From Cenococcum geophilum 1.58 (taxonomy: Eukaryota > Ascomycota > Dothideomycetes > Gloniales > Gloniaceae), in NCBI GenBank assembly GCA_001692895.1, contig KV748248.1, positions 1-64,000 of the forward strand: a DNA stretch of 64,000 nt, given 5' to 3'. Position 1 is the stretch's first letter. The number at the start of each line of letters is the position of its first letter. The notes under the pieces were generated by a model. It worked only from the letters and a program-made list of their open reading frames with translations, did no database searches and was not told the origin of the DNA. This document shows positions 31,641 to 45,690 of this stretch, in pieces. The translations under genes were made by a program, and so were the position numbers.

Positions 31641-32143
31641 TAAGTTGATTTTGGTATAGTGACTGAGTTTAGGAGGCAACTAAGTTCTAGGGGTCCGAGC
31701 TTACCGTATAAAAGATTACCTATATAGTATAACTCTACTTAGATATAAATAGGCACTAGGAAGAACTTTAGGCCTATATTATACTACTTACTAACTACCC
31801 TATTATTCTTAAAATAAACTAGCTTAAATAATATAACCCTACTATTAACTAGAAGAAAAAAGAAGGAACCTTTAACTCTAAATACTATAGAGAGACTTGC
31901 CTAAGGCATAGCTTAGCCACCTCTATTTACTCCCTAGGATATTAACCTAAGAAACCCCTTACTACTCTACCTATAACTAACTACTACTATATAAGTGCCA
32001 TAGCCTTCTACCGTATAGTATATAAGAAAGGCTAAACCATTACTATAGCTTTTTAATTAGAACTATATAAGCTTAATAAAGAATAAAACTACGTCCTCTA
32101 TAGTAATAGGATAGACATAGTTAACCTTTTAAAAGATAACGCC
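31641..32143 (+). pseudogene. Unidentified coding-like remnant 5' of the MITE
   Basis: A plus-strand frame over about 31680-32143 can be read with TAA/TAG as former Gln codons, including SKYYRETCLRHSLATSIY and DIVNLLKDNA at the end. A second frame is also fairly open, so the assignment is weak. It ends at the MITE boundary (32144), and sequence after 44865 would be its continuation. Family unknown. Confidence 0.25.
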
Positions 32144-32229
32144 CATTAGGAAAAAAAAAATTTAGGCACGTTATCGCAGTCAAAAATTAGGGTCTGCTTA
32201 ACTCGCTTAAGTCGCGATTTTGGCGATTT

Positions 32230-32570
32230 TGTTACGGGACACCCCCGTAATACCTTGCACACGTCCACCTGTTTTTACCGACTTAGCAATTAGAGACTAA
32301 CCGCAAAATGGCAATTTAATAGCAATCTGATGGCAATCTAATGGTAATTTACGGCATTCTGCTAAGTTTTGCTAGGACCATGACCTAAACCCTATTCTGC
32401 CCTATGTATATATTAACTAAGCAACCAAGTTAACGATATATGCCCTTTCTTCCCGTTTTCCTACCTTCTCTCCTTACGCAACGTCTTAATTTTATTACAC
32501 AGTTTATATACATAGCTTAATAATATCTACTTTACTATATATTATTGTCGCTTATACTTACTCTATAACA
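32230..32570 (+). repeat. 5' LTR of B
   Basis: This 341-bp LTR begins TGTTACGGGACACCCCC and ends CTATAACA. It is 30 bp shorter than the 3' LTR because a run of AGTTCTGCTA-type units has fewer copies. Confidence 0.92.
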
Positions 32571-33018
32571 CTATATTATATTAAACCTATACTACCTTAC
32601 CCCGCCTAATATATAGAATAACCTAAAAGCCCCTATATTTATAACTAACTTACGTAATATATTTACCGAATAAATAAAGGGCCTGCAATAGGCCTTTATA
32701 GATGCCCTTACTTAGTAAGAAGCTTAATACTAAGAAATAATTAGATCCCTAAGAAAAGAAATTAAAGAGATCCGCCGTAACCTACCGTCTGCTATACTAT
32801 CGCCCCTACCTATTCCTACTAGTGTTAACCTATAAGTACTAGATAGAGAAGACGTGTTTAAGACTAGCTCCTTAACCCTAAATTCGCTAATTAGTGCCCC
32901 CGTAAAGAAGCTAACGTCAGGAAAAATTTTACCAGCATTTTTGCAGCATTTGGCAGCATTTGGCGGCCAAATGCGCATTCCGCGCACTATAACGTGTAGC
33001 GTATAGTATTGACTAAGG

Positions 33019-33160
33019 TGCGGCATACTGCTGCATTTAATAATGCAGTGCGGCATACCGCTGCATACTGCTATATTTAACAATGCAGTGCGGCATACTG
33101 CTGTATTTAACAATATAGTGCGGTATACTGCTATATTCAATAATACAGTGCAGCTAATTA
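33019..33160. repeat. 30-bp tandem array in D1
   Basis: About four imperfect units of the type GTGCGGCATACTGCTGCATT plus TAATAATGCA. The overlapping open stretches on both strands are repeat artefacts. Confidence 0.8.
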
Positions 33161-33190
33161 CGCATTTTGTACTTAATGCGCAATTAATAT

Positions 33191-33271
33191 ATAATGCCCT
33201 CCTTGCGTATTCTGTATATAATGCCCTCCTTACGCATTCTATATATAATGCCCTTTTTACATATTCTATAT
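33191..33271. repeat. 27-bp tandem array in D1
   Basis: Three units of exactly 27 bp beginning ATAATGCCCT. Later units differ by C to T changes, in part in CpA context. Confidence 0.85.
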
Positions 33272-33400
33272 ATCTTACTCTTCCTACGCACTTAATAGTA
33301 TTTGCTTAGTTTATACAGTTAGTACAAAATAAATTATATTATTTTAGATAATTTAATATAATATAGCGACGGTTCTCTTCTCCCTATTTACTTACCGACT

Positions 33401-33570
33401 TACCTACCTACCTACCTACCTGCCTACCTACCTACCTACCTACCTACCTACCTACCTGCCTGCCTATCTGCCTGCCTACCTACCTACCTACCTACCTACC
33501 TACCTACCTACCTACCTACCTACCTACCTACCTACCTACCTATCTATCTATCTGTCTGTCTATCTATACC
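33401..33570. repeat. CCTA/CCTG tetranucleotide tract in D1
   Basis: About 40 tetranucleotide units, mainly CCTA with blocks of CCTG and, at the 3' end, TCTA and TCTG. The variants are C/T transitions, and the tract grades into a TACCTGTCTATG spacer shared with D2. Confidence 0.95.
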
Positions 33571-33680
33571 TACCCGTCTATACCTACCTATCTGTGCCTA
33601 CCTGTCTATGTCACCTTGATTCGATCGATTAATTGAATCGTTTATCGTGTTCGCTGGCTGGTCGTTTAAACGGTTGTTGT

Positions 33681-34362
33681 GTAGCTCTGGCGACGGTTAT
33701 GTAGCGATAACGACGGTTGTCTAGCTCTGGCGACGGTTATCTGGCTCTGGCGACGATCATCTAGCTCTGACGACGGTTGTCTAGCTCTGACGGTCGTCCA
33801 GCTCTAAAGACGGTCATCTGGCTCCGGCGACGGTCGTCTAGCTCTGACGACGGTCGTCTAGCTCTAACAACGATCGTCCAGCTCTAGCGACGGTCATCTG
33901 GCTCCGGCGACGGTCGTCTAGCTCTAACGACGGTCATCTAGCTCTGACGGTCGTCTAGCTCCGGCGACGGTCATCTAGCTCCGGCGACGGTTGTCTAGCT
34001 CTGACGATGATCGTCTGGCTCTGACGGTCTAGCTCTGGCGACGGTTATCTGGCTCCGGCGACGGTCGTCTAGCTCTAACGACGGTCGTCTAGCTCTGACG
34101 GTCGTCTAGCTCTGGCGACGGTTATCTGGCTCCGGCGACGGTCGTCTAGCTCTGACGACGGTCGTCTGGCTCTGACGGTCGTCCAGCTCTGGCGACGGTT
34201 ATCTGGCTCTGGCGACGGTCGTCCAGCTCTGACGACGGTCGTCTGGCTCTAACGACGATCGTCTAGCTCTGGCGACGGTCATCTGGCTCTGGCGACAGTC
34301 GTCTAGCTCTGACGACGGTCGTCTGGCTCTGACGGTCGTCTAGCTCCGGCGACGGTCGTCTG
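33681..34362. repeat. 20-bp minisatellite in D1
   Basis: About 35 units of a 20-bp repeat of the type TAGCTCTGACGACGGTCGTC, with several 17-bp variants lacking one GAC. The core GACGACGGTCGTC is a near-palindrome, so single strands could form many small hairpins. CpG-rich in an otherwise AT-rich region. Confidence 0.95.
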
Positions 34363-34504
34363 CTAGCTGTCGTTCTGGTGTCTTCCTAGGTAGGGAGGAT
34401 ATAAGGAAGGGTAAAAAATGAGGTGGCTACCTAGGTGTATATAGGGGGTATACTTGGCAGAGGCACGTGTAGAGGCTATCGGGAATATAGTAGGGACCCA
34501 ATAC
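34363..34504. other. Conserved spacer between the two minisatellites (D1)
   Basis: About 140 bp almost identical to 38524-38665 in D2, with a core of over 70 identical bases including AGGAAGGGTAAAAAATGAGG. It holds a 9-bp inverted repeat CCTAGGTAG ... CTACCTAGG. RIP has barely touched it. A continuous frame runs across it into the 12-bp array, but it starts at TTG and has no ATG. Confidence 0.8.
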
Positions 34505-35108
34505 GGAGCTTTGTGTAGAGCCTCCGTACGCAGAGCTTCGTATAGAGCCTCTATACGCAGAGCTTTGTATAGAACCTCCGTACGTAGAGCTTCGCGCAGA
34601 GCCTTATATAGAGCCTCTATACGTAGAGCTTTATATAGAGCTTTGTATAGAGCTTTGTGTAGAGCTTTATGCAGAGCTTTATATAGAACTTTATGTAGAG
34701 CTTTATGCAAAGCTTTGTGTAGAACTTTGTGCAGAGCTTTATATAAAGCTTTGTATAGAACTTTATATAGAGCTTCGTATAGAGCTTCGTATAGAGCTTT
34801 ATATAGAACTTTATATAGAACTTCGTGTAGAGCCTTATACAGGGCTTTGTATATAGAGCTTTATATATACAGAACTATATACAGAGCTTTGTATAGAGCT
34901 TCGTGTAGAACTTTATATAGAGCTTCGCGTAGAGCTTTATATAGAGCTTTGCGTAGAGCTTTGTGTAGAACTTTATACAGAGCTTCGCGTAGAGCTTTAT
35001 ATAGAACTTTATGCAGAGCTTTATATAGAGCTTCCGAAGAGCTTTGTACGGAACTTTATGCGGAACTTTATGCGGAACTTTATATAGAACTTTATACGGA
35101 GCCTCTAT
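34505..35108. repeat. 12-bp minisatellite in D1
   Basis: About 48 units of the type AGAGCTTTGTAT, with interspersed 15-bp units (AGAGCCTCTATACGC). As the period is a multiple of three and the unit lacks stops, both strands appear as long ORFs of four-residue repeats (RALY, KALH). I treat these as artefacts of the array. Confidence 0.95.
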
Positions 35109-36110
35109 ATTAGAAAAAAATTTACTAGCATCTAATTTTACTTTTTTGCTATTTTAGCATTTTCTAGTATTTAGCAGCTAAATGCTAATACTTAATTATA
35201 AAAGCAGCATTTGGCGGCTAAATGCTAGTACTTAGTAATAAATACAGCTAAATGCTAACACTTAATTATAAATACGGCATTTGGCGCTAAATGCTAGTAC
35301 TTAGTAATAAATGCCGCATTTAGCTGCTAAATGCTAGGAAATGCTAGAAATGCTAAGAAATGCTAAAATGGCAGAAAAGTAAAATTAGATGCTGGTAAAT
35401 TTTTTCCTAACAAACCAAATATCTCCCTAATCCTCCCGCCTATTTAGGTAAAAGGAGCAAACTACGCTCCTTCCTTAACTAACTTAAGAATAAGCTAAAT
35501 AGTAATATTGACCGCTACCCTACCCCTAATAGTTAACTATGTTATACTATAAGCCGTTTAACGGGAGATGCCGCGGAAACTGTGTACCCGTTTTAGCTAA
35601 ACACTATAGAAGAACTAGTTACTATACTAGAAGCATTTTATAGCGACCCTAACCAAATTATAATAGTATAAAGGAAACTAAATAAGATAATATATGGCTC
35701 TAAGAGCTTCCTATTATACTTTATTGAGTTCCACCGCTATACTAAAGAGACTAGATAGAATAAACCCGCCTTAATTAATCGCCTAGTGGAATCTTTAAAC
35801 TCTAAACTAAAGGCTTCCCTTATAGGAGTTAAACTGCTAGATATCCTTACTGCCTACGCTAATGTTATTAACGGCCTGTATAACAATATACTACGCCTTA
35901 CCCTAAAATATATACCTTAATACTCTACCCTCTAGTCGTCTAAGACCCGTAAGGACCTAGACGCTATAGATATTAACGCTAAAACCCTCTCTTACGCCCT
36001 AAAAGGATTTACTAAATGTAAACGACGTATTAAATACGGCCTTTGTTTTAAGTGCGGAAGCGACGCTTATATCTTAAGTTACTGCTCTATCCCCCTGCCT
36101 AAAATAAATA

Positions 36111-37504
36111 TTTAAACAGCTAGTATAGGCGGTGTACTACTGTCCTAATTATATAAAAGGATAACTAGTATAAGCAACTAATCGCCTTAACTAAGCTCTG
36201 TTTACTGACCCTAATTATTATCTAGTTCTAACTCGTTATATAGTAAGCACCACTTATAAGGACGAAACTATAACTAATACGCTATAAGAACTCCGTCTCG
36301 ATCGCCTTTAAAAGGAAGGTCTTAGAGCTAAGTCGCTCTCTAGGACGGCTTTGCCTTAAGATCTTATTAAATGCTTTAGATATTATAAACTCTAACTCTT
36401 AGGATTATAGCATAACCGTTAACTACCGCCTATAGCAGAATAATTAATAGGTTAGTACTTAAGTCTTAATTAATATAGGAGCCAGCGGCATAGGATTTAT
36501 TAATAAGATCTTTGCGTAAGATAATGGTTTTACCCTAACCCCCCTTAACCGGCATATTAATGTATTTAGATTTAATGGCAAATATACCGTCTTAGGCCGT
36601 ATTACCTATATAGTATTTCTAAGACTCTAATACCTAAACCACGAAGAACTGATTAGGCTTTTTATTACTACCTTAGGTTATTTAGTAATCCTTAGATAAC
36701 CCTAGATAAAGCTATATAAGGTAACTATTAATTAGGATAACCTTAAGCTTCTATTTACCGCCTCCTATTATAAGCAGAAGTGCCTTATAACTTACTACTT
36801 AGACCTAAAACTAAAATATAAAAATTCTACTAAACCCTACAAACAGACTCTAAGTACTGCACCACCCCGCGCTAAGTAAAAGCTTAAGCTTACTATATAA
36901 AAGTACTAGAAGGACTAGTACTCTATTATAAAGAGTATACTTAAAGAACCCGAACCTAAATCTAATACTAACTCTATACCTAATACTGACTCTGTACCTA
37001 ATACTAAACCTAAAGCTAAATAAAACGCTATGTAAGAAACTAGAGACGATCTAAGTAAGCTTAGTACCCTAGATATCTATATAATTAAAGCTACCCTACT
37101 GGCGTAACTTGCTAAGAAACCCGAGTATATAATCTTTACTATTATAATAGCTGATATTAAGAAAGCCTTAGCACTAAAGAAGCACACTAACCCTACCACA
37201 AAGGTACTAGTAGAGTATTATTATCGCCTAGATGCATTCTTATAAAAGGAAGCCAATAAGCTACCGGAATACCAACTATATAACTATAAGATTATACTTA
37301 AAGAAGGAAAGCAGCCCGGATTTAGACCCTTATACAAAATATCCTAAAATAAACTCTAAGTACTATAAAAGTATTTAGACGAGAACCTAAGTAAAGGATT
37401 TATTAGAGTAAGCTCGTCGCCTATAGCCGTACTAGTAATCTTTATTAAGAAACCTAGTGGTAGTCTACGCTTCTGTATAGACTACCAAGCTCTTAATGCC
37501 GTTA
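36111..37504 (+). pseudogene. B pol pseudogene, part 1 (protease to RT start)
   Basis: The protease active-site region is near 36460-36500: INIGASGIGFI, where the Asp of the DSGA-type motif is Asn. A linker with Pro/Asn/Ser/Lys-rich repeats follows (about 36950-37020, SNTNSIPNTDSVPNTKP). RT starts with a GFIRVSSSP and [11 protein letters not shown] segment ending at 37504, where D2 is inserted. Stops at former Gln codons are frequent. Confidence 0.85.
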
Positions 37505-37718
37505 TATTAGGAAATTTTTTTTAGGCGCGTTGTTGCAGATTACGGCAATTTGCTGCAAACTATGTAATTTGCGTGGTCGTATATAGTCGTTAGCAATTCG
37601 CGTAAACCGCGCGTTTTACAACAAAATTGCAGCATCTACTAGCAAATTATAGCAAAACGCTTAACTACCAAACTAATTCTAGCTTTTTGCTACCCTACAA
37701 ATAAATAGCGCGCAAACT

Positions 37719-37826
37719 GTACGAACTATATAAACTATACGAACTGTATAAACTATACAAACTATATAAACTATATAAACTATACAAACTATATAAATTG
37801 TATAAACTGTACGAACTATATAAATT
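37719..37826. repeat. 9-bp tandem array in D2
   Basis: Twelve units of the type ATATAAACT / GTACGAACT. Differences among units are largely transitions. Confidence 0.85.
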
Positions 37827-37976
37827 ATTATTATATTATATAATAACCAAATTATTACATATTCCTATAGATTTCTATAATATACTTTTAAATATATTTA
37901 TATTATAACTATATAAAATATAGAGCTATCTACTTTAGGTATTAAGGGGGAAGCCTCTTATAGAGGCTCCAAATTA

Positions 37977-38160
37977 TCTACCTACCTGCCTATCTACCTA
38001 CCTACCTACCTACCTACCTGCCTGCCTACCTACCTACCTACCTGCCTACCTATCTACCTGCCCGCCTACCTGCCTGCCTACCTACCTATCTATCTATCTA
38101 TCTATCTGTCTATCTATTTATCTATCTGTCTATCTGTTTATACCTACCCGTCTATACCTA
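37977..38160. repeat. CCTA/CCTG tetranucleotide tract in D2
   Basis: The same kind of tract as in D1, with CCTG and TCTA interruptions, followed by the same TACCTGTCTATG-type spacer and a GATTCGATTAATCGATT segment. Confidence 0.95.
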
Positions 38161-38253
38161 CCTATCTATGCCTACCTGTCTATGTTACCTTGATTCGATT
38201 AATCGATTAAATCGTTTATTGTGTTCGCTGGCTGGTCGTTTAAACGGTTGTTA

Positions 38254-38523
38254 TATAGCTCTAGCAGCGGTCATATAGCTCTAGCGACGGTCGTCTAGCT
38301 CTGACGGTTATCTAGTGACGGCGACGGTTGTCTAGCTCTGATAACGGTCGTCTAGCTCTGACGGTCGTCTAGCTCTAGCGACGGTTATCTGACGACGGTC
38401 GTCTAGCTCTGGCGACAGTCATCTAGCTCCGGCGACGGTCGTCTAGCTCTGACGACGGTTATCTAGCACTGGCGACGGTCGTCTAGCTCCGGCGATGGTC
38501 GTCTAGCTCCGGCGACGGTTGTC
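38254..38523. repeat. 20-bp minisatellite in D2
   Basis: About 13 units of the same 20-bp repeat as in D1 (CTCTGACGACGGTCGTCTAG type), with 17-bp variants. The array is much shorter than in D1. Confidence 0.95.
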
Positions 38524-38665
38524 TGCTGGCTATTGTTCTGGTATCTTCCTAGGTAGGGAGGATATAAGGAAGGGTAAAAAATGAGGTGGCTACCTAGGTG
38601 TATATAGGGGGTATACTTGGTAGAGGCACGTGTAGAGGCTATTGGGAATATAGCGGGGACCCGAT
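38524..38665. other. Conserved spacer between the two minisatellites (D2)
   Basis: Counterpart of 34363-34504, with only scattered transitions. It includes the CCTAGGTAG/CTACCTAGG inverted repeat. Confidence 0.8.
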
Positions 38666-39310
38666 GTAGAGCTTCGCGTAGAGCCTCTATACGCAGAGCT
38701 TCGCGCAGAGCCTCGTGCAGAGCCTCTATACGTAGAGCTTCGTATAGAGCTTCGTGTAGAGCCTCGTGCAAAGCTTTGTATAGAGCTTCGTGCAGAGCTT
38801 CGTGCAGAGCTTCGTATAAAGCCTCGTACAGAGCTTTGTGTAGAGCCTCGTATAGAGCCTCGTTTAAAGCTTCGTGTAGAGCTTCGTGTAGAGCTTTATA
38901 TAGAGCTTCGTATAGAGCTTCGTGCAGAGCTTCGTGCAGAGCTTTGTATAGAGCTTCGTGTAGAGCTTCGTGCAGAGCNTTGTGCAGAGCTTCGTGTAGA
39001 GCTTTGTATAGAGCTTCGTGCAGAGCTTTGTGTAGAGCTTCGTATAGAGCTTCGTGCAGAGCTTTGTGCAGAGCTTCGTATAAAGCTTCGTATAGAGCTT
39101 CGTATAGAGCTTCGTGCAGAGCTTTGTGTAGAGCTTCATGCAGAGCTTCGTATAGAGCTTCGTATAGAGCTTCGTATAGAGCTTCGTGTAGAGCTTTGTG
39201 TAGAGCTTCGTACAGAGCCTCTATACGCAGAGCTTTATATAGAGCCTTGTGTAGAACCTTGTGCAAAGCTTCGTATAGAGCTTTGTGTGGAGCTTCGTGC
39301 AGCGCTTTAT
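38666..39310. repeat. 12-bp minisatellite in D2
   Basis: More than 50 units of the type AGAGCTTCGTGT, more homogeneous than in D1. It gives long spurious ORFs on both strands (for example 38617-39369 plus and 38463-39266 minus). One unresolved base at 38979. Confidence 0.95.
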
Positions 39311-39639
39311 GCAGTTTTGTGGTATTTTTATTACATTTTTATTGCATTTTTGTTGCAGCCAAAAATTAGGGTCTGCTTAAGTCGCTTAAGTCGCAATTTT
39401 AGCAATTTATAACATACGGAACGTTGGTCCCCCAACGTAAATTTTAACCCGAGTTTATAAGTAATAAGCCAATCAATTTTAGAGCTTTATTATATAGACT
39501 TTAATTAATATATATAGAGATAAGGTTTTCTAGGGGGAGACCCCCTGGACCCCCCCTATATAGAGCTTTTACTTAATTTAGAAGTAATATATATACCTCC
39601 GTCGTGCTGCGCTGTGGGGGCTGCTTCGCAGTAGGGGGT

Positions 39640-41245
39640 AGGCTTTAGTAGAGGCTTGTGCAGAGTTTTATATAGAGCTTTGTGCAGAGCCTTATATAGA
39701 GCCACGTGCAGGCGTACAGACGTGTAGACGTGCAGACGTGCAGACGTGCAGGCGTGCAGACGTTTCTGGCGATTAATTGCAGAGACGTTTACAGAGACAA
39801 TTGTATGAGCAATTGTATGGACATTTAACTAACCGTTCGTTCGGGCGTTCGTGTGGGCGATTAATTGATTGATTAATTGTATGGACATTTATAGAGCCGT
39901 GCGTAGGGCCGTTCGTAGAGAAGTTTGTACGGGCGTTCTATTGATCGATTATATGGGTGTTTAATTGATTGATTAATTAATCGTACAGGCGATCGTGCAG
40001 ACGTTCGTAGAGCCTTTTATAGAGCCGTTCGTGTAGACGATTATAGAGCCTTCCTAGTATATTAGTGCTGCGTGTTAGTAGAGCCTTAGAGCTCCGTATC
40101 AAGCTTTGAGTAGAGCTTCGAGTAGAGCTTCGAGCTCAAGGGGGAGACCCCCTTAGACCCCCCCACGCACTGCGTGCTCCATTCACTGCAGAGGCAGAGC
40201 TCTTGCAGGCTTTGGTAGAGCGTTTTAGTAGAGCTTTTGGTAGAGTTTTTGCAGAGCTTCGTGTAGAGCTTCGTGTAGAGCTTCGTGTAAAGCTTCGTAT
40301 AGAGCTTCTATAGAGCTACATGACAATCGTACGGGCGATCAATCGTAGAGACGTTTATAGAGACGATCGTATAGGCAATCGTGTAGACGTTTAATTGATT
40401 AATCATATGGACGTTTAATTGATCGTTCGTATAGGCGTTTGTACGGCCAATTGTAGAACCTTCCTGGTATATTAGCACTGCGTGTTAGTAGAGCTTTAAA
40501 GCTCCGCAGTAAGCCTCAAGTAGAGCTCCGAGTAGAACTTTGAGCTCAAGGGGGGGGCACAGCTCTTGCAGAGGCTTTTGGTAGAGGCTTTGGTAGAGCT
40601 TTTAGTAGAGCTTTTGTAGAGCTTTAATAGAGCTTTGAGTAGAGCTCCGAGCAGAGCTTTGTATAGGCGTTCGTGTAGGCGTTTATATAGATATTTGTAG
40701 AGAATTGTAGACGTTCGTACGGACGATTGTATAGGCGGTTGTAGACGTTCGTAGAGACGTTCGTAGAGACGTTTATACGGGCGTCTAATTAATTGTATAG
40801 GCGTTTAATCGATTGATCGTATAGATATTTAATTGATCGATCGTATGCGCGTTCGTATAGGCGATCGTGTAGACGTTTATAGAGCCGTTTGTAGAGCCGT
40901 TTATGCGGATGATTGTATAGGCAATTGTAGAGCCGTCTATAGAGACGTTCATAGAGACAATTATAAGACTTCCTAGTATATTAGTGCTACGTGTTAGTGG
41001 AGCTTTAGAGCTTCGTATAGGGCTTTAAATAGAGCTTCGAGTAGAGCTTCAAAGGGGAGACCCCTTAGACCCCCTGCGCACTTTATGCTCCTGCATGGCT
41101 AGTACACTAGGTAGGTAGAGGTGTTGCGAAGCCTTTGGTAGAGCTTTTAGTAGAGCTTTTGTAGAGCTTCGTACGGAGCTTCGTACGGAGCTTCTGCAGG
41201 GCTTTGGTAGAGCTTAGTGCAGAGCTTTTACAGAGCTTTTGTAGA
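39640..41245. repeat. Higher-order tandem repeat in D2
   Basis: Three long units are visible. Each has a segment starting TTCCTAGTATATTAG (near 40046, 40461 and 40970), then TAGAGCTTCGAG runs, a GGGGGAGACCCCCTTAGACC block, an AGAGCTTTTGGTAG run and a CGTTCGTGTAGACG / ATTGATTGATTAATTG part. Unit length is roughly 420-510 bp. The units are themselves built from variants of the 12-bp repeat. Confidence 0.75.
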
Positions 41246-41251
41246 GCTTGG

Positions 41252-41536
41252 TATTTTGAAGTTCATCACGTGGATTCTGCCACAAATTACCGCGCGTAGT
41301 TTTGTTTCTAACCAATTAGAAGCTGGCTTAGCTAAGTTTGAAATCCAGGACCCGAAAATATAGACTACTTATACCTCGGGTCAATAATATTTTGATATTC
41401 CAATATTTTGAAGTTCGTCACGTGAATTCTGCCACGACTTACCGCTGCATCTTTTTTTAAACCAATTAGAAGCTGGCTTGGCAAAGTTTGAAATCTGGGA
41501 CCCGAAAATATAGACCACTCGTACCTCGGGTCAATA
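41252..41536. repeat. Pair of 135-bp direct repeats in D2
   Basis: 41252-41386 and 41404-41536 are direct repeats starting TATTTTGAAGTTC and ending CCTCGGGTCAATA. Each includes a CACGTG motif (41267-41272 and 41419-41424) and AATTAGAAGCTGGCTT. Less RIPped than the host. The 64-codon minus-strand open stretch here is not conserved between the repeats. Confidence 0.85.
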
Positions 41537-41652
41537 AAGTAGCCTGCAAATCGCTGCAAATTGCCGCAAATTGCTAAAATTGCGACTTAAGCGAGTTAAG
41601 CAGACCCCAATTTTCGGCTGCAACAACGCGCCTAAAAAAAAATTTCCTGATG

Positions 41653-44358
41653 TACTGTTAAGAACTAATATCCGATCCCGTTAATATGAGAGACGCTAAA
41701 CTGACTAAGTAAGGCTCGTTACTACATAAAGCTTAATATTATCTCTGCATTTAACCGTCTCTATATTATAAAAGGAGACAAATAGCTTACTGCATTTTGT
41801 ACCCAATATGGACTATTTAAGTACCTAATAATACCCTTTAGCCTTATAAACGCTCTAAGCTTGTTTTAACATTATATAAATAATACCCTACGCCCCTACC
41901 TAGACATCTTTTACACTGCTTATATTAATAACATCCTAATATATAGTAATAGCCTAACTAAATATTGGAAGCACGTTAACCTTATTCTATAAGCCCTACA
42001 CGGAGCTAGTTTATAATTAGATATAGATAAATGCGAGTTTTATAAAATAGAAGTTCTATACCTTAGACTTTTTATTTCTATAAACGGTATATAAATAGAC
42101 CTAAAGAAAGTTAAAGTAATTATAAACTGGTAAGAACCTAAGAATATTAAGGACGTAAAAGCCTTTATAGGGTTTACTAATTTCTACTAACAGTTTATTA
42201 ATAACTTCTTTGCCTTAGTTTTACCCCTTATAGCTCTAACCTAAAAGGATAAAGTTTTTGTCTTTAATAAGGAATATAAGAAGGCCTTTGCCTATCTAAA
42301 GGTTATATTTACTACTGCGCCTATACTTTAATACTTTAACCTAAACTAAATAAGTGTTATAGAAGCTGATTTATCTAACTACGTTACTAAAGGCATCCTG
42401 TCTTAATATAACAAGGATGGAGTATTATACCCTATAGTATACTTTTTAAAATAACTAAGCCTAGCTGAATATAACTACGAGATCTACAATAAGGAATTAT
42501 TAGCTATTATTAGATATTTTAAATAATAGCGACCTAAACTAGAAGGCGCTGGATTTCTAATTAAGGTCCTTAGCAACTATAAGAACCTATAATACTTTAC
42601 GACCATAAAATAGCTAAGTTATTATTAGGCCCGCTAGTTAAAATATCTATCTTGTTTCTAATTTTTAATTATATACCGCCTAGGCGTTTAAGGTTAGAAG
42701 CCTAATGCCTTAACCCAATACTTATAAGACGCGCTAGCCCTAAAAGAAGCGCGCTCTTACTAAAATCAGACCCTGCTTTGCCCTAAACTATTTAACCCTC
42801 TTACTAAAGACCTTATAGTATACGTCCTTAAAATAACTAATTAACTAATTAAATAGATTATAATTAACAAATACCTAAATAATAAATTTATTTAAGAGAC
42901 GCTTAAGCTAATATATAATAGCATTAGACGCTCTAAAAAGATTTCTCTAAGTAAATACAAAGCCTATGGAAACCGCTTATATTACTAGAACCGCTTAGTT
43001 ATACCTAACTATAATAAACTTAAGCTTAAGCTCCTTAAACATGTATATAATCTACTAGTAGCCGGCTACCTAGACTAAGAAAAAACCCTAGAACTGCTCT
43101 AACGAGAATATTATTGGCCGAATATATATAATATAATATAAAGGTACGTCTTTAGCTGCTATATCTGCCGACGAGCTAAAGCTTTACATAAGATGTATAA
43201 CGGCCTCCTAAAGCTACTACCTATTCCGGACCGAAGATGGAAGGATATCTTAATTAACTTTGTTATTAACCTCCCCGTAAGTAAAGGCTGTATAAATATT
43301 ATAGTAGTTATAGATTAACTATCTAAGATAAGGCACTTAATCGCCTGCCCTAATATATTAACGCCTACTATTGCCTAACTATTCCTAGACTATATATAAA
43401 AACTCTATAAACTCCCTAAAATAATTATCTCTAATAGAGGTAGCTAGTTTATCTCTGTATTTTAGAAAGAATTAACTACCTAACTCCGTATTAAAGTACT
43501 ACTATTTACTATATATTACCTAGAAACAGATGGTTAAACGGAATGTATAAACGCTATAATGGAATAGTATATCTGGATATACACGTTATATCTATAAGAT
43601 AACTGGATTAACTGGCTTATATTTACTAAGTTTATTATAAATAATTCCGTCTTAGAAACTATAAAGGTCTCCCTATTTCTAGCCAATTACGGCTAGTACC
43701 TATAAATGGGTTTTAAACCTTTTAGTAATGTTCCTTGCCCTATTCGTTACGTCTTATAAGTTATAGAAGTAAATGAATTCGTAAAGAAGATAGAGGAACT
43801 ATAATGGTTTCTTACTAATGAAATAATATAGGCCTAATTTGTCTATAAAGCCGTAGTAAATAAGAAACGAACCCTAGCACCGGCTTACTAAATTAGTAAC
43901 TTTGTCTGGCTAAATATAAGAAACCTAAATATAAAATAACCTACTAAGAAACTTAATTGGAAGAACGCTGGCCCTTACGAGATTAAGAAGGTTGTTTTCT
44001 TTTATGCCTACTAACTAAAGCTCCCTAATACGGTTAAAATCCACCCTGTATTCTATACGTTAGTCCTCTACCCTACTGCCCCTATATTAGACGCCCTACC
44101 TAAACAGATATAAGACCCTCCCCCACTAGTTAAAGTAGATAGTAAAAACGAGTACTTTATTAAAAGAATTAATAATATTAAGTATAATAAACGGAAACGC
44201 TAATATATATACCTTACGAAATAGAGAGGCTTTACTAAGCCCTTATAGGAACCTGTTAACTCTATAGGACTTATATAAGCTGTAGAAGACTTTTACAAAC
44301 TTTACCTAGAACTACTATAGCCCTATCTCGCAGAAGCTTAAGTTTAAAAGGGGGGTAC
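41653..44358 (+). pseudogene. B pol pseudogene, part 2 (RT, RNase H, integrase, chromodomain)
   Basis: RT resumes after D2 (VKN, YPIPL), with FCTQYGLFKYL and the box YINN (about 41929-41940) in place of YxDD. RNase H runs about 42250-42700. Integrase runs about 43080-44050. Its first and second catalytic Asp are Asn (43256-43258 in LINFVINLP; 43433-43435 in ISNRGSQF), while the Glu of the GxTEC-like segment is kept. A chromodomain near 44130-44300 (NEYFIKRINNIKYNK ... EPVNS) ends the polyprotein shortly before the 3' LTR. The G tract at 44350-44355 fits a polypurine tract. Confidence 0.88.
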
Positions 44359-44729
44359 TGTTACAGGACACCCCCGTAATACCTTGCACATATCTACCTA
44401 TTTCTACTAACTTAGCAATTAGAGATTAACTATAAAATAGCAATTTAATAGCAATCTAATAGCAATCTAACGGCAATCTATGGCATTCTGCTATATTCTG
44501 CCAAGTTCTACTAAATTCTATTAAGTTCTGCCAGGACTACGACCTAAACCCTATTCTGCCCTATATATATATTAACTAAGCAATTAAGTCAACAATATAT
44601 GCCCTTTCTTCCCATTTTCCTACCTTCTCTCCTTACGCAACGTCTTAATCTCATTATATAGTTCATGTACATAGCTTAATAATATCTACTTTGCTATATA
44701 TTATCGTCGCTTATACTTACTCCGTAACA
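44359..44729 (+). repeat. 3' LTR of B
   Basis: This 371-bp LTR has intact TGTTACAGG and CCGTAACA ends. It carries extra AGTTCTACTAA-type units relative to the 5' LTR. Confidence 0.93.
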
Positions 44730-44865
44730 GATTTATAGCAATTTATAGCGATTTGCTATAAACATATATGGGTAGCCTATATATTTATAGCAAATCGCTA
44801 TAAATCGCTAAGTTAAGCAGACCCCAACTTTTAGCTGCAATAACGTGCTTAAAAAAATCCTAATG

Positions 44866-45690
44866 CCTAGCCGCTATAACTAGCTACTATAACTAATATA
44901 TAGGAAGTATAACCGTAGGGACAGGCCAGTAGAGCTCTCTTATTAAATACGAAATTGCTATATATTGCCTAGCACACTCCAGTTATTAGGCATAAAATTG
45001 CCGTATATTACCTAGCATATCACCCAGTTCCTTAAGCGGTAAGCTAGCAAACTTCTATTACTAAGCGCGAAATTGCTGTATATTACCTAGTATATACCCA
45101 GTTCTTTAAGCAGCAAGCTAGTAGACTTCCATTACTAAGTATAAAGTTACTATATATTACTAGGCATATTGCCCAATTCTTTAAATTATAAGCTGGTAGG
45201 CGACGCCTATTATTAGTAAAACATTTTAATATATTAGCTTATATTTACCTAGTTCCTACATTATAAGCTAGTAGACTTATTATATTAATAGAGCATTACA
45301 ATATATTACCTAGCGTATCACTTAGGTCTTTAAATAGCAAGCTAGCAGTTATCGCTTATTAATAGAGCACTATAATATATCCAGTCGCTTATTGCCCAGC
45401 TCCTTAAATAGCAAGATAGTAAACTTGTCTTATTAATAGAAGAATTTCGGCATATTACCGATATATTGCCCTATTCTATAAAAAACAACCTAATATACCT
45501 TCTATTAACCGTAAGACCATAGTATATTGCTAAAAAATATTGCTTATTCTACTAAAAAAAAACCCCTAGTATATGCATTCCATTAGCTATAAGACTGCGG
45601 CATATTGCCTATTATATTTCCTAATTCTTAAAATAATAGCCTAGTATACTTCTTCTATAAAATAAGACTTTACAGCAAATTGCTTAGCAT
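44866..45690. repeat. Degenerate tandem array, unit about 75 bp
   Basis: At least seven to nine imperfect units anchored on AAGCTAGYAGACTT, CGAAATTGCTGTATATTACC and CCCAGTTCTTTAAG. Two fully measured units are 74 and 75 bp, so the period is not a multiple of three and a repeat protein is unlikely. Units near the 3' end are more diverged. It follows directly after the MITE. Confidence 0.75.

Follow-up and report, generated by a model that had tools for sequence, protein, structure and literature searches.

The first 64,000 nucleotides of contig KV748248.1 of Cenococcum geophilum 1.58 (GCA_001692895.1; hereafter the window, C73:1-64000 of a searched genome of 177 Mb in 162 contigs) carry two array-bearing elements, D1 and D2, within one Ty3-like long terminal repeat (LTR) retrotransposon. 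D2 is a non-autonomous DNA transposon that exactly interrupts the Ty3-like reverse-transcriptase frame. Its exact limits are 37505 (TATTAGGAAATTT) and 41652 (TTTCCTGATG), with TA on both sides. D1 is its sister with the same internal cassette. The features of both elements are as follows.

37503..37504, unstranded: left copy of the TA target duplication of D2, from comparison of termini and duplications
37505..41652, plus strand: D2 element, 4148 bp (2025 bp minus the nested repeat), from termini, duplication and split reading frame
37505..37700, plus strand: D2-type left end, common to D2-type copies and without match to D1 ends
37714..37828, plus strand: AT-rich repeats (9-bp/27-bp) in the left subterminal region of the D2 type
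37978..38183, plus strand: tetranucleotide tract CTAC/CTAT, where similarity between D1 and D2 starts on the left
38188..38250, plus strand: conserved TTGATTCGAT segment
38253..38524, plus strand: 20-bp array
38526..38660, plus strand: conserved cassette spacer
38665..39307, plus strand: 12-bp array
39350..39408, minus strand: inner arm of the hairpin at the right end, with 95% complementarity to 41568-41626
39412..41534, unstranded: nested repeat 'D3' in the hairpin loop, left limit within 1 bp either way
41535..41652, plus strand: D2-type right end, outer hairpin arm
41653..41654, unstranded: right copy of the TA duplication, from the same comparison
32915..35412, plus strand: D1, with CGTCAGG-type ends and the duplication AA at 32913-32914 and 35413-35414
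35108..35412, plus strand: D1 right end, including an inner terminus copy that abuts the array at GAGCCTCTA

Excising D2 with one TA rejoins the frame ALNAV-T-VKN and recovers the split codon (GTT A / CT GTT, the flanks having been translated separately), as a sequence-only reading of this locus had claimed for a reverse-transcriptase motif. The right flank, translated apart, reads VKN*YPIPLI, and a piece of 44 amino acids (aa) left of D2 matches a Ty3 reverse transcriptase in PDB (4ol8, E 0.0044); no Pfam family matched this piece at E 0.1. The cassette order that the same reading described for D2 (tetranucleotide tract, TTGATTCGAT segment, 20-bp array, spacer, 12-bp array) was also found, and D1 has it too.

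The two elements represent two end types. D1 ends read CGTCAGG..CCTGACG and D2-type ends CATCAGG..CCTGATG, with variants that resemble repeat-induced point mutation (RIP); D2 itself has TATTAGG..CCTGATG, with CATCAGG in sister copies. The window shows the excess of TpA over ApT that RIP would be expected to leave, with a ratio of at least 1.5 in 31 of 32 2-kb blocks and 1.18 in the single exception, a pattern pointing to a filamentous ascomycete. Exact matches to the D2 end pattern CATCAGGAAANNTTTTTT occur at 311 genome places versus 2 for the reversed control, and those to the D1 end pattern at 211 (control 0). Complete elements, defined by the presence of both ends, numbered 27 including D2, and 25 of them have matching 2-bp duplications: TA in 16, AA and GG in two each, and CC, AG, TT, GA and CT in one each, giving nine that are not TA. 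The unmatched pairs are TA/TG (L018) and TG/CT (L033). Permuting the right ends 10,000 times yielded a mean of 10.6 matched duplications and a maximum of 18.

These properties narrow the choice of superfamily. Nine of the 25 matched duplications are not TA, which rules out a Tc1/mariner miniature inverted-repeat transposable element (MITE); the termini are not CACTR, as in CACTA elements sensu stricto (EnSpm); and a foldback element was rejected on the grounds that the hairpin occurs at the right end only and that left and right ends share about 30 bp. The sole published rule that we found to fit both the ends and the duplication of D2 is that of PlavakaB, with termini CATCA..TGATG and a 2- or 3-bp target duplication (PMC12730594). 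D2-type elements have these termini, and the duplication is 2 bp in the 25 matched elements. A Plavaka transposase model found at least 123 places in the genome (123 of 266 first-look candidates were scored), nearly all of them stop-ridden. D1 and D2 differ from PlavakaB as described there in being non-coding, in their array interior, in the CGTCA..TGACG termini of D1 and in that no element combining their ends with a Plavaka gene was found. We found no transposase reading frame in D2, and at L049, upstream by 1 kb from the best Plavaka place, no CATCA end faces the gene. D1 is termed only Plavaka-like because of its CGTCAGG..CCTGACG ends. Profiles for Transposase_21 (PF02992) and KDZ (PF18758) had no match in the genome, but both were also silent in their own control genomes. 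Right termini without a spacer (L037, L038) showed no gene recognisable by eye, no family search having been made, and the 265-bp terminus pairs considered as solo MITEs were, among those examined, right-end hairpins adjoining an array. Three exact D2-type ends in one orientation lie inside 13 kb at C2:2725081, 2732205 and 2737903.

Between the two end types the cassette is shared. The spacer core occurs at at least 362 genome places with up to two mismatches (control 0). From 43 collected spacers we removed two short ones (L032, L043) before building a tree, leaving 41 rows of 145 bp, 12 of D1 type and 29 of D2 type. Not one fixed difference separates the types, and a single column has a differing majority. 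Mean distance is 0.019 within D1, 0.055 within D2 and 0.038 between them, and among 348 cross-type pairs 30 show no difference at all; four D1 spacers (L020, L021, L024, L025) equal that of the D2-type L028 over all 145 bp. The ends present the opposite picture. Over 300 bp of left end, cross-type matches number 0 of 190 pairs, against all 45 D1 pairs and 169 of the 171 D2 pairs, and the last 150 bp of the right ends give 0 of 270 cross-type pairs. Right ends taken over 242 bp produced 95 cross-type matches, all in the first 95 bases, which hold array remains and low-complexity sequence. D1 left ends pair only with D1 right ends, and D2 with D2, throughout the 27 complete elements; L044 and L045 bear a variant D2-type left end. 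The assertion that D1 and D2 differ outside the cassette holds between termini and cassette but needs refining for the outermost bases, which are related (CRTCAGGA).

Similarity between the families spans from the CTAC tract to inside the 12-bp array. On the right, the array ends in GAGCCTCTR, with an inner copy of the element's own-family terminus beginning at the next base, in 4 of the 11 D1 rows and in 6 of the 31 D2 rows. We also paired ends and spacers by coordinates, using the 100 places listed per pattern (D2 end, D1 end, spacer) and so covering part of the genome. Among the 100 exact spacers listed, 26 are accompanied by a correctly placed and oriented exact D1 end, and one by an end in the wrong orientation. 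The 62 of these spacers on C1-C13 included 14 with an exact D1 end, 13 with an exact D2 end, all of them correctly placed and oriented, and none with both; two further spacers there had a D2-type end in the wrong orientation, and at C4:4710681, which is L015, this is the inner arm. Controls shifted by 20-100 kb gave 0 or 1. The ends of the remaining spacers are off the exact pattern or beyond the search distance.

The sequence-only reading had offered two accounts, a cassette that moves between elements or long-diverged members of one family whose arrays are maintained. Since the spacer is alike across types and the ends are unalignable, we conclude that the interior was exchanged, and the second account loses ground because similarity across types is equally high in the spacer, a non-array segment. 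We consider it probable that D2 is a non-autonomous Plavaka-like (CMCT, CACTA-related) transposon and that its interior module passed as a block between the D1 and D2 families. The direct observations behind this are the anatomy of the elements, their duplications, the identical spacer, the unrelated ends and the shared right junction. We claim an exchange and neither its number nor its direction, the latter being something we could only infer.

A transposase supplied in trans would recognise the CRTCAGGA ends, cut there and make the 2-bp duplications. The module, from the CTAC tract through the TTGATTCGAT segment, 20-bp array and spacer to the 12-bp array, would have been transferred as one block, most likely by a template switch during excision-gap repair or by ectopic recombination. 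The left switch point would lie within the CTAC tract and the right one within the 12-bp array or at the inner terminus copy, whose first bases are common to both families; for at least some copies we would place it at the inner terminus, because the same junction base adjoins a stretch that both families share. Afterwards the module would have been copied in each family and its arrays would have changed in length. Gap repair with template switching in repeats would yield both the length changes and the exchange, and abortive gap repair is the explanation proposed for Medicago elements that carry arrays (PMC2213677). The arrays might serve as multiple transposase-binding sites, a role stated for Galileo (PMC4079207).

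Several observations weigh against exchange between Plavaka-like families. Loci L029-L048 were chosen by their right terminus, which biases the sample. The GAGCCTCTR junction is present in a minority of copies; in two D2 rows (L019, L048) it is offset by 1-2 bases, and L043 differs. The spacer tree mixes the types, and with 0 of 32 branches starred and RIP-like transitions blurring it, that is all it shows. Terminus types are somewhat clustered on it: the label changes 7 times, a number not exceeded in 4 and 7 of 500 shuffles. A single D1 clade, found in 0% of 200 bootstrap trees, is marginally disfavoured (p-AU 0.054, not rejected at 0.05). Given the clustering and this p-AU, free mixing fits less well than a small number of exchanges that were then inherited, and one exchange, or few, is possible. 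As to the superfamily, D1 ends begin CGTCA instead of the CATCA of PlavakaB, no Plavaka gene was found between D1 or D2 ends among the places compared, and the nearest such place lay 12.8 kb from a terminus, among the 200 termini listed.

The junction invites a different account, in which the ends were swapped: a short terminus-loop-terminus element would have inserted next to the module at GAGCCTCTR and its outer end then been used, creating a composite transposon. In 4 D1 and 6 D2 copies the module indeed runs, at one and the same base, straight into a complete inner terminus, and the window holds a short solo element bounded by ends of this kind (217 bp, duplication CC). Two independent insertions would not, however, be expected to share an identical junction base in both families, and left ends have no inner terminus, so we regard an end swap as unlikely. 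Long divergence, with drifting ends and an interior held alike through selection or concerted evolution, would account for the outermost CRTCAGGA and the right-end hairpin common to D1 and D2, and for the clustering of terminus types on the spacer tree. It fares poorly against cross-type spacer identity of up to 100% beside 300 bp of left end and 150 bp of right end that are unalignable; moreover, RIP-like transitions in the spacer resemble those of its surroundings, and the spacer has no coding or above-gathering Rfam signal. We judge it very unlikely. An equally improbable alternative is that the cassette is its own mobile unit or satellite seed, inserted separately in both families. Its 12-bp unit does recur in D3 (81-82% alike), placing module parts in a third family, but all 27 complete elements keep the cassette in one order and orientation with respect to their ends, and neither a target duplication nor inverted ends were seen around the cassette. 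Free satellite DNA, which the sequence-only reading had named as the finding that would refute its own interpretation, did not appear among the 18 cassettes tested (17 loci among the 39 other matches of the spacer-similarity list, plus D2): 17 have at least one terminus and the other, L026, keeps D1-type subterminal sequence.

D2 had been described as the larger sister of D1. It shares the cassette, and its surplus size comes from D3, the 2123-bp sequence (39412-41534) nested in the loop of the right-end hairpin, where it separates the inner arm from the outer. All 14 other D2-type right ends compared are without D3 and pass from the inner arm straight into AAAGTAGCC and then the outer arm, and D2 minus D3, at 2025 bp, lies within the 1370-3158 bp spanned by the other 26 complete elements. 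D3 has a target duplication of 1 bp at most, is multicopy (2059 first-look candidates, 40 of them scored) and contains the 12-bp units that resemble D2's own 12-bp array. Its right end bears a 150-bp tandem duplication (41252-41537). The hairpin region of the D1-type L011 holds a different insert (L011:4478-6912) with ends CAGTGTGTCC and an 8-bp duplication, GCTAGTAC, which we take to be hAT-like; this is a second independent insertion in that right-end hairpin.

Both D1 and D2 lie inside older elements.

32230..44729, unstranded: Ty3-like LTR retrotransposon that contains D1 and D2, with LTRs at 32230-32570 and 44359-44729 and the duplication GATTT
32144..44865, unstranded: outermost host, the 217-bp D2-terminus element with duplication CC, its arms (32144-32229 and 44735-44865) split by the retrotransposon

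The LTRs are 81.4% identical over 371 columns, and the 217-bp element is without a cassette. D1 splits a gag-like frame upstream in the retrotransposon (labelled by eye; without database match). From this nesting follows the order of events: the short D2-terminus element, then the retrotransposon, then D1 and D2, and then D3 within D2.

A coding interior was rejected, as D2 frames of at least 70 aa are array translations. The frame at 38463-39338 on the minus strand passes the Pfam cut-off as a KALHEAL-type low-complexity product of the 12-bp array, and no stretch of it passes alone. Structured RNA was likewise rejected: among 24 Rfam matches (E up to 0.1, 32100-44900), the majority of which fall within either the 12-bp array or an AT-rich palindrome, 0 reach the gathering score. 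Array length varies several-fold across copies, for the 20-bp array roughly from 50 to 670 bp. The 20-bp array is unlikely to be essential, because L044 and L045 are complete elements that almost lack it, with 22 bp between the flanking segments. These two copies are near-identical, lie in different places, share the variant left end and are probably a recent burst.

D1-type ends also bound much larger units. Among the 100 D1 ends listed, 10 neighbouring pairs have a spacing of 12-35 kb, and 9 of these converge. One of the nine, on C20 (14.4 kb, with a cassette near the end), is probably an inflated D1, as is a pair on C4 (10.4 kb). The other eight form units of 19.8-32.4 kb, the first six of them with sampled ends (L050-L061).

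C10:950439-972018, sampled
C11:2729587-2762001, sampled
C13:454670-474490, sampled
C22:764829-796411, sampled
C25:402785-434679, sampled
C26:826116-846461, sampled
C8:729882-758725, ends unsampled
C12:546320-573353, ends unsampled

Judged from 150 bp at each end, all six sampled units have a D1-left-type and a D1-right-type end and matching duplications (TA in five, AC in one). Three marker positions, two of them transversions, set all six apart from 10 small D1 left ends, one marker being unreadable in two small copies. The six share the signature of one subfamily, which chance insertion of retrotransposons into small copies of D1 would not single out. At least 30 further ends match a large-unit end at 91% or more, a level at which small D1 copies also appear. 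The eight units contain none of the 100 exact spacers listed and no Plavaka place out of the 123; one unit contains cassette-like matches (C25:422758-424831). The large units may be the parent element of D1. We find it doubtful, though conceivable, that they are a giant transposon family and the autonomous or cargo-bearing parent of D1, with D1 and D2 repeatedly refilled by an itinerant cassette that parasitises interiors and switches hosts at the terminus core and CTAC tract. To our knowledge, few giant elements are known in the CACTA-related group. A review describes CACTA elements of 16-20 kb in a red alga (PMC6431247).

Other array-bearing transposons offer partial parallels. MtPH-A6-4, a PIF/Harbinger element of Medicago, is likewise non-autonomous with a variable number of internal tandem repeats, and abortive gap repair was invoked there; it differs in its 3-bp duplication, its superfamily and the confinement of rearrangement to one subfamily (PMC2213677). 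Jozin of Chenopodium belongs to the CACTA group and has a tandem array near its 3' end, but has CACTA termini, a 3-bp duplication, coding capacity and a 171-bp satellite array (PMC8978399). Tetris, a foldback element of Drosophila virilis, is non-autonomous with tandem repeats and shares terminal inverted repeats (TIRs) with DAIBAM; its arrays lie in the TIRs and as free satellite, whereas D1 and D2 have theirs in the interior, and no free copy appeared among the 18 cassettes (PMC4079207). In the accessible literature on Plavaka termini, array-bearing CACTA and minisatellite transposons, gap repair, giant fungal transposons and Cenococcum, with subscription papers mostly outside its coverage, no description of the D1/D2 family was found.

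The usual argument for exchange of transposon interiors comes from captured genes. In this one genome a single interior, marked in at least 362 copies, lies under two end types, which makes template switching directly testable; the nesting order provides a clock, and the breakpoints are visible. Finding CATCAGGA or CGTCAGGA in the terminal 30 bp of intact-ended Plavaka genes would name the driver. If the 20-32 kb units are indeed one transposon family, giant elements would be added to the group. Arrays in transposons can be shared via capture and not common descent, which matters wherever families are named from their interiors.

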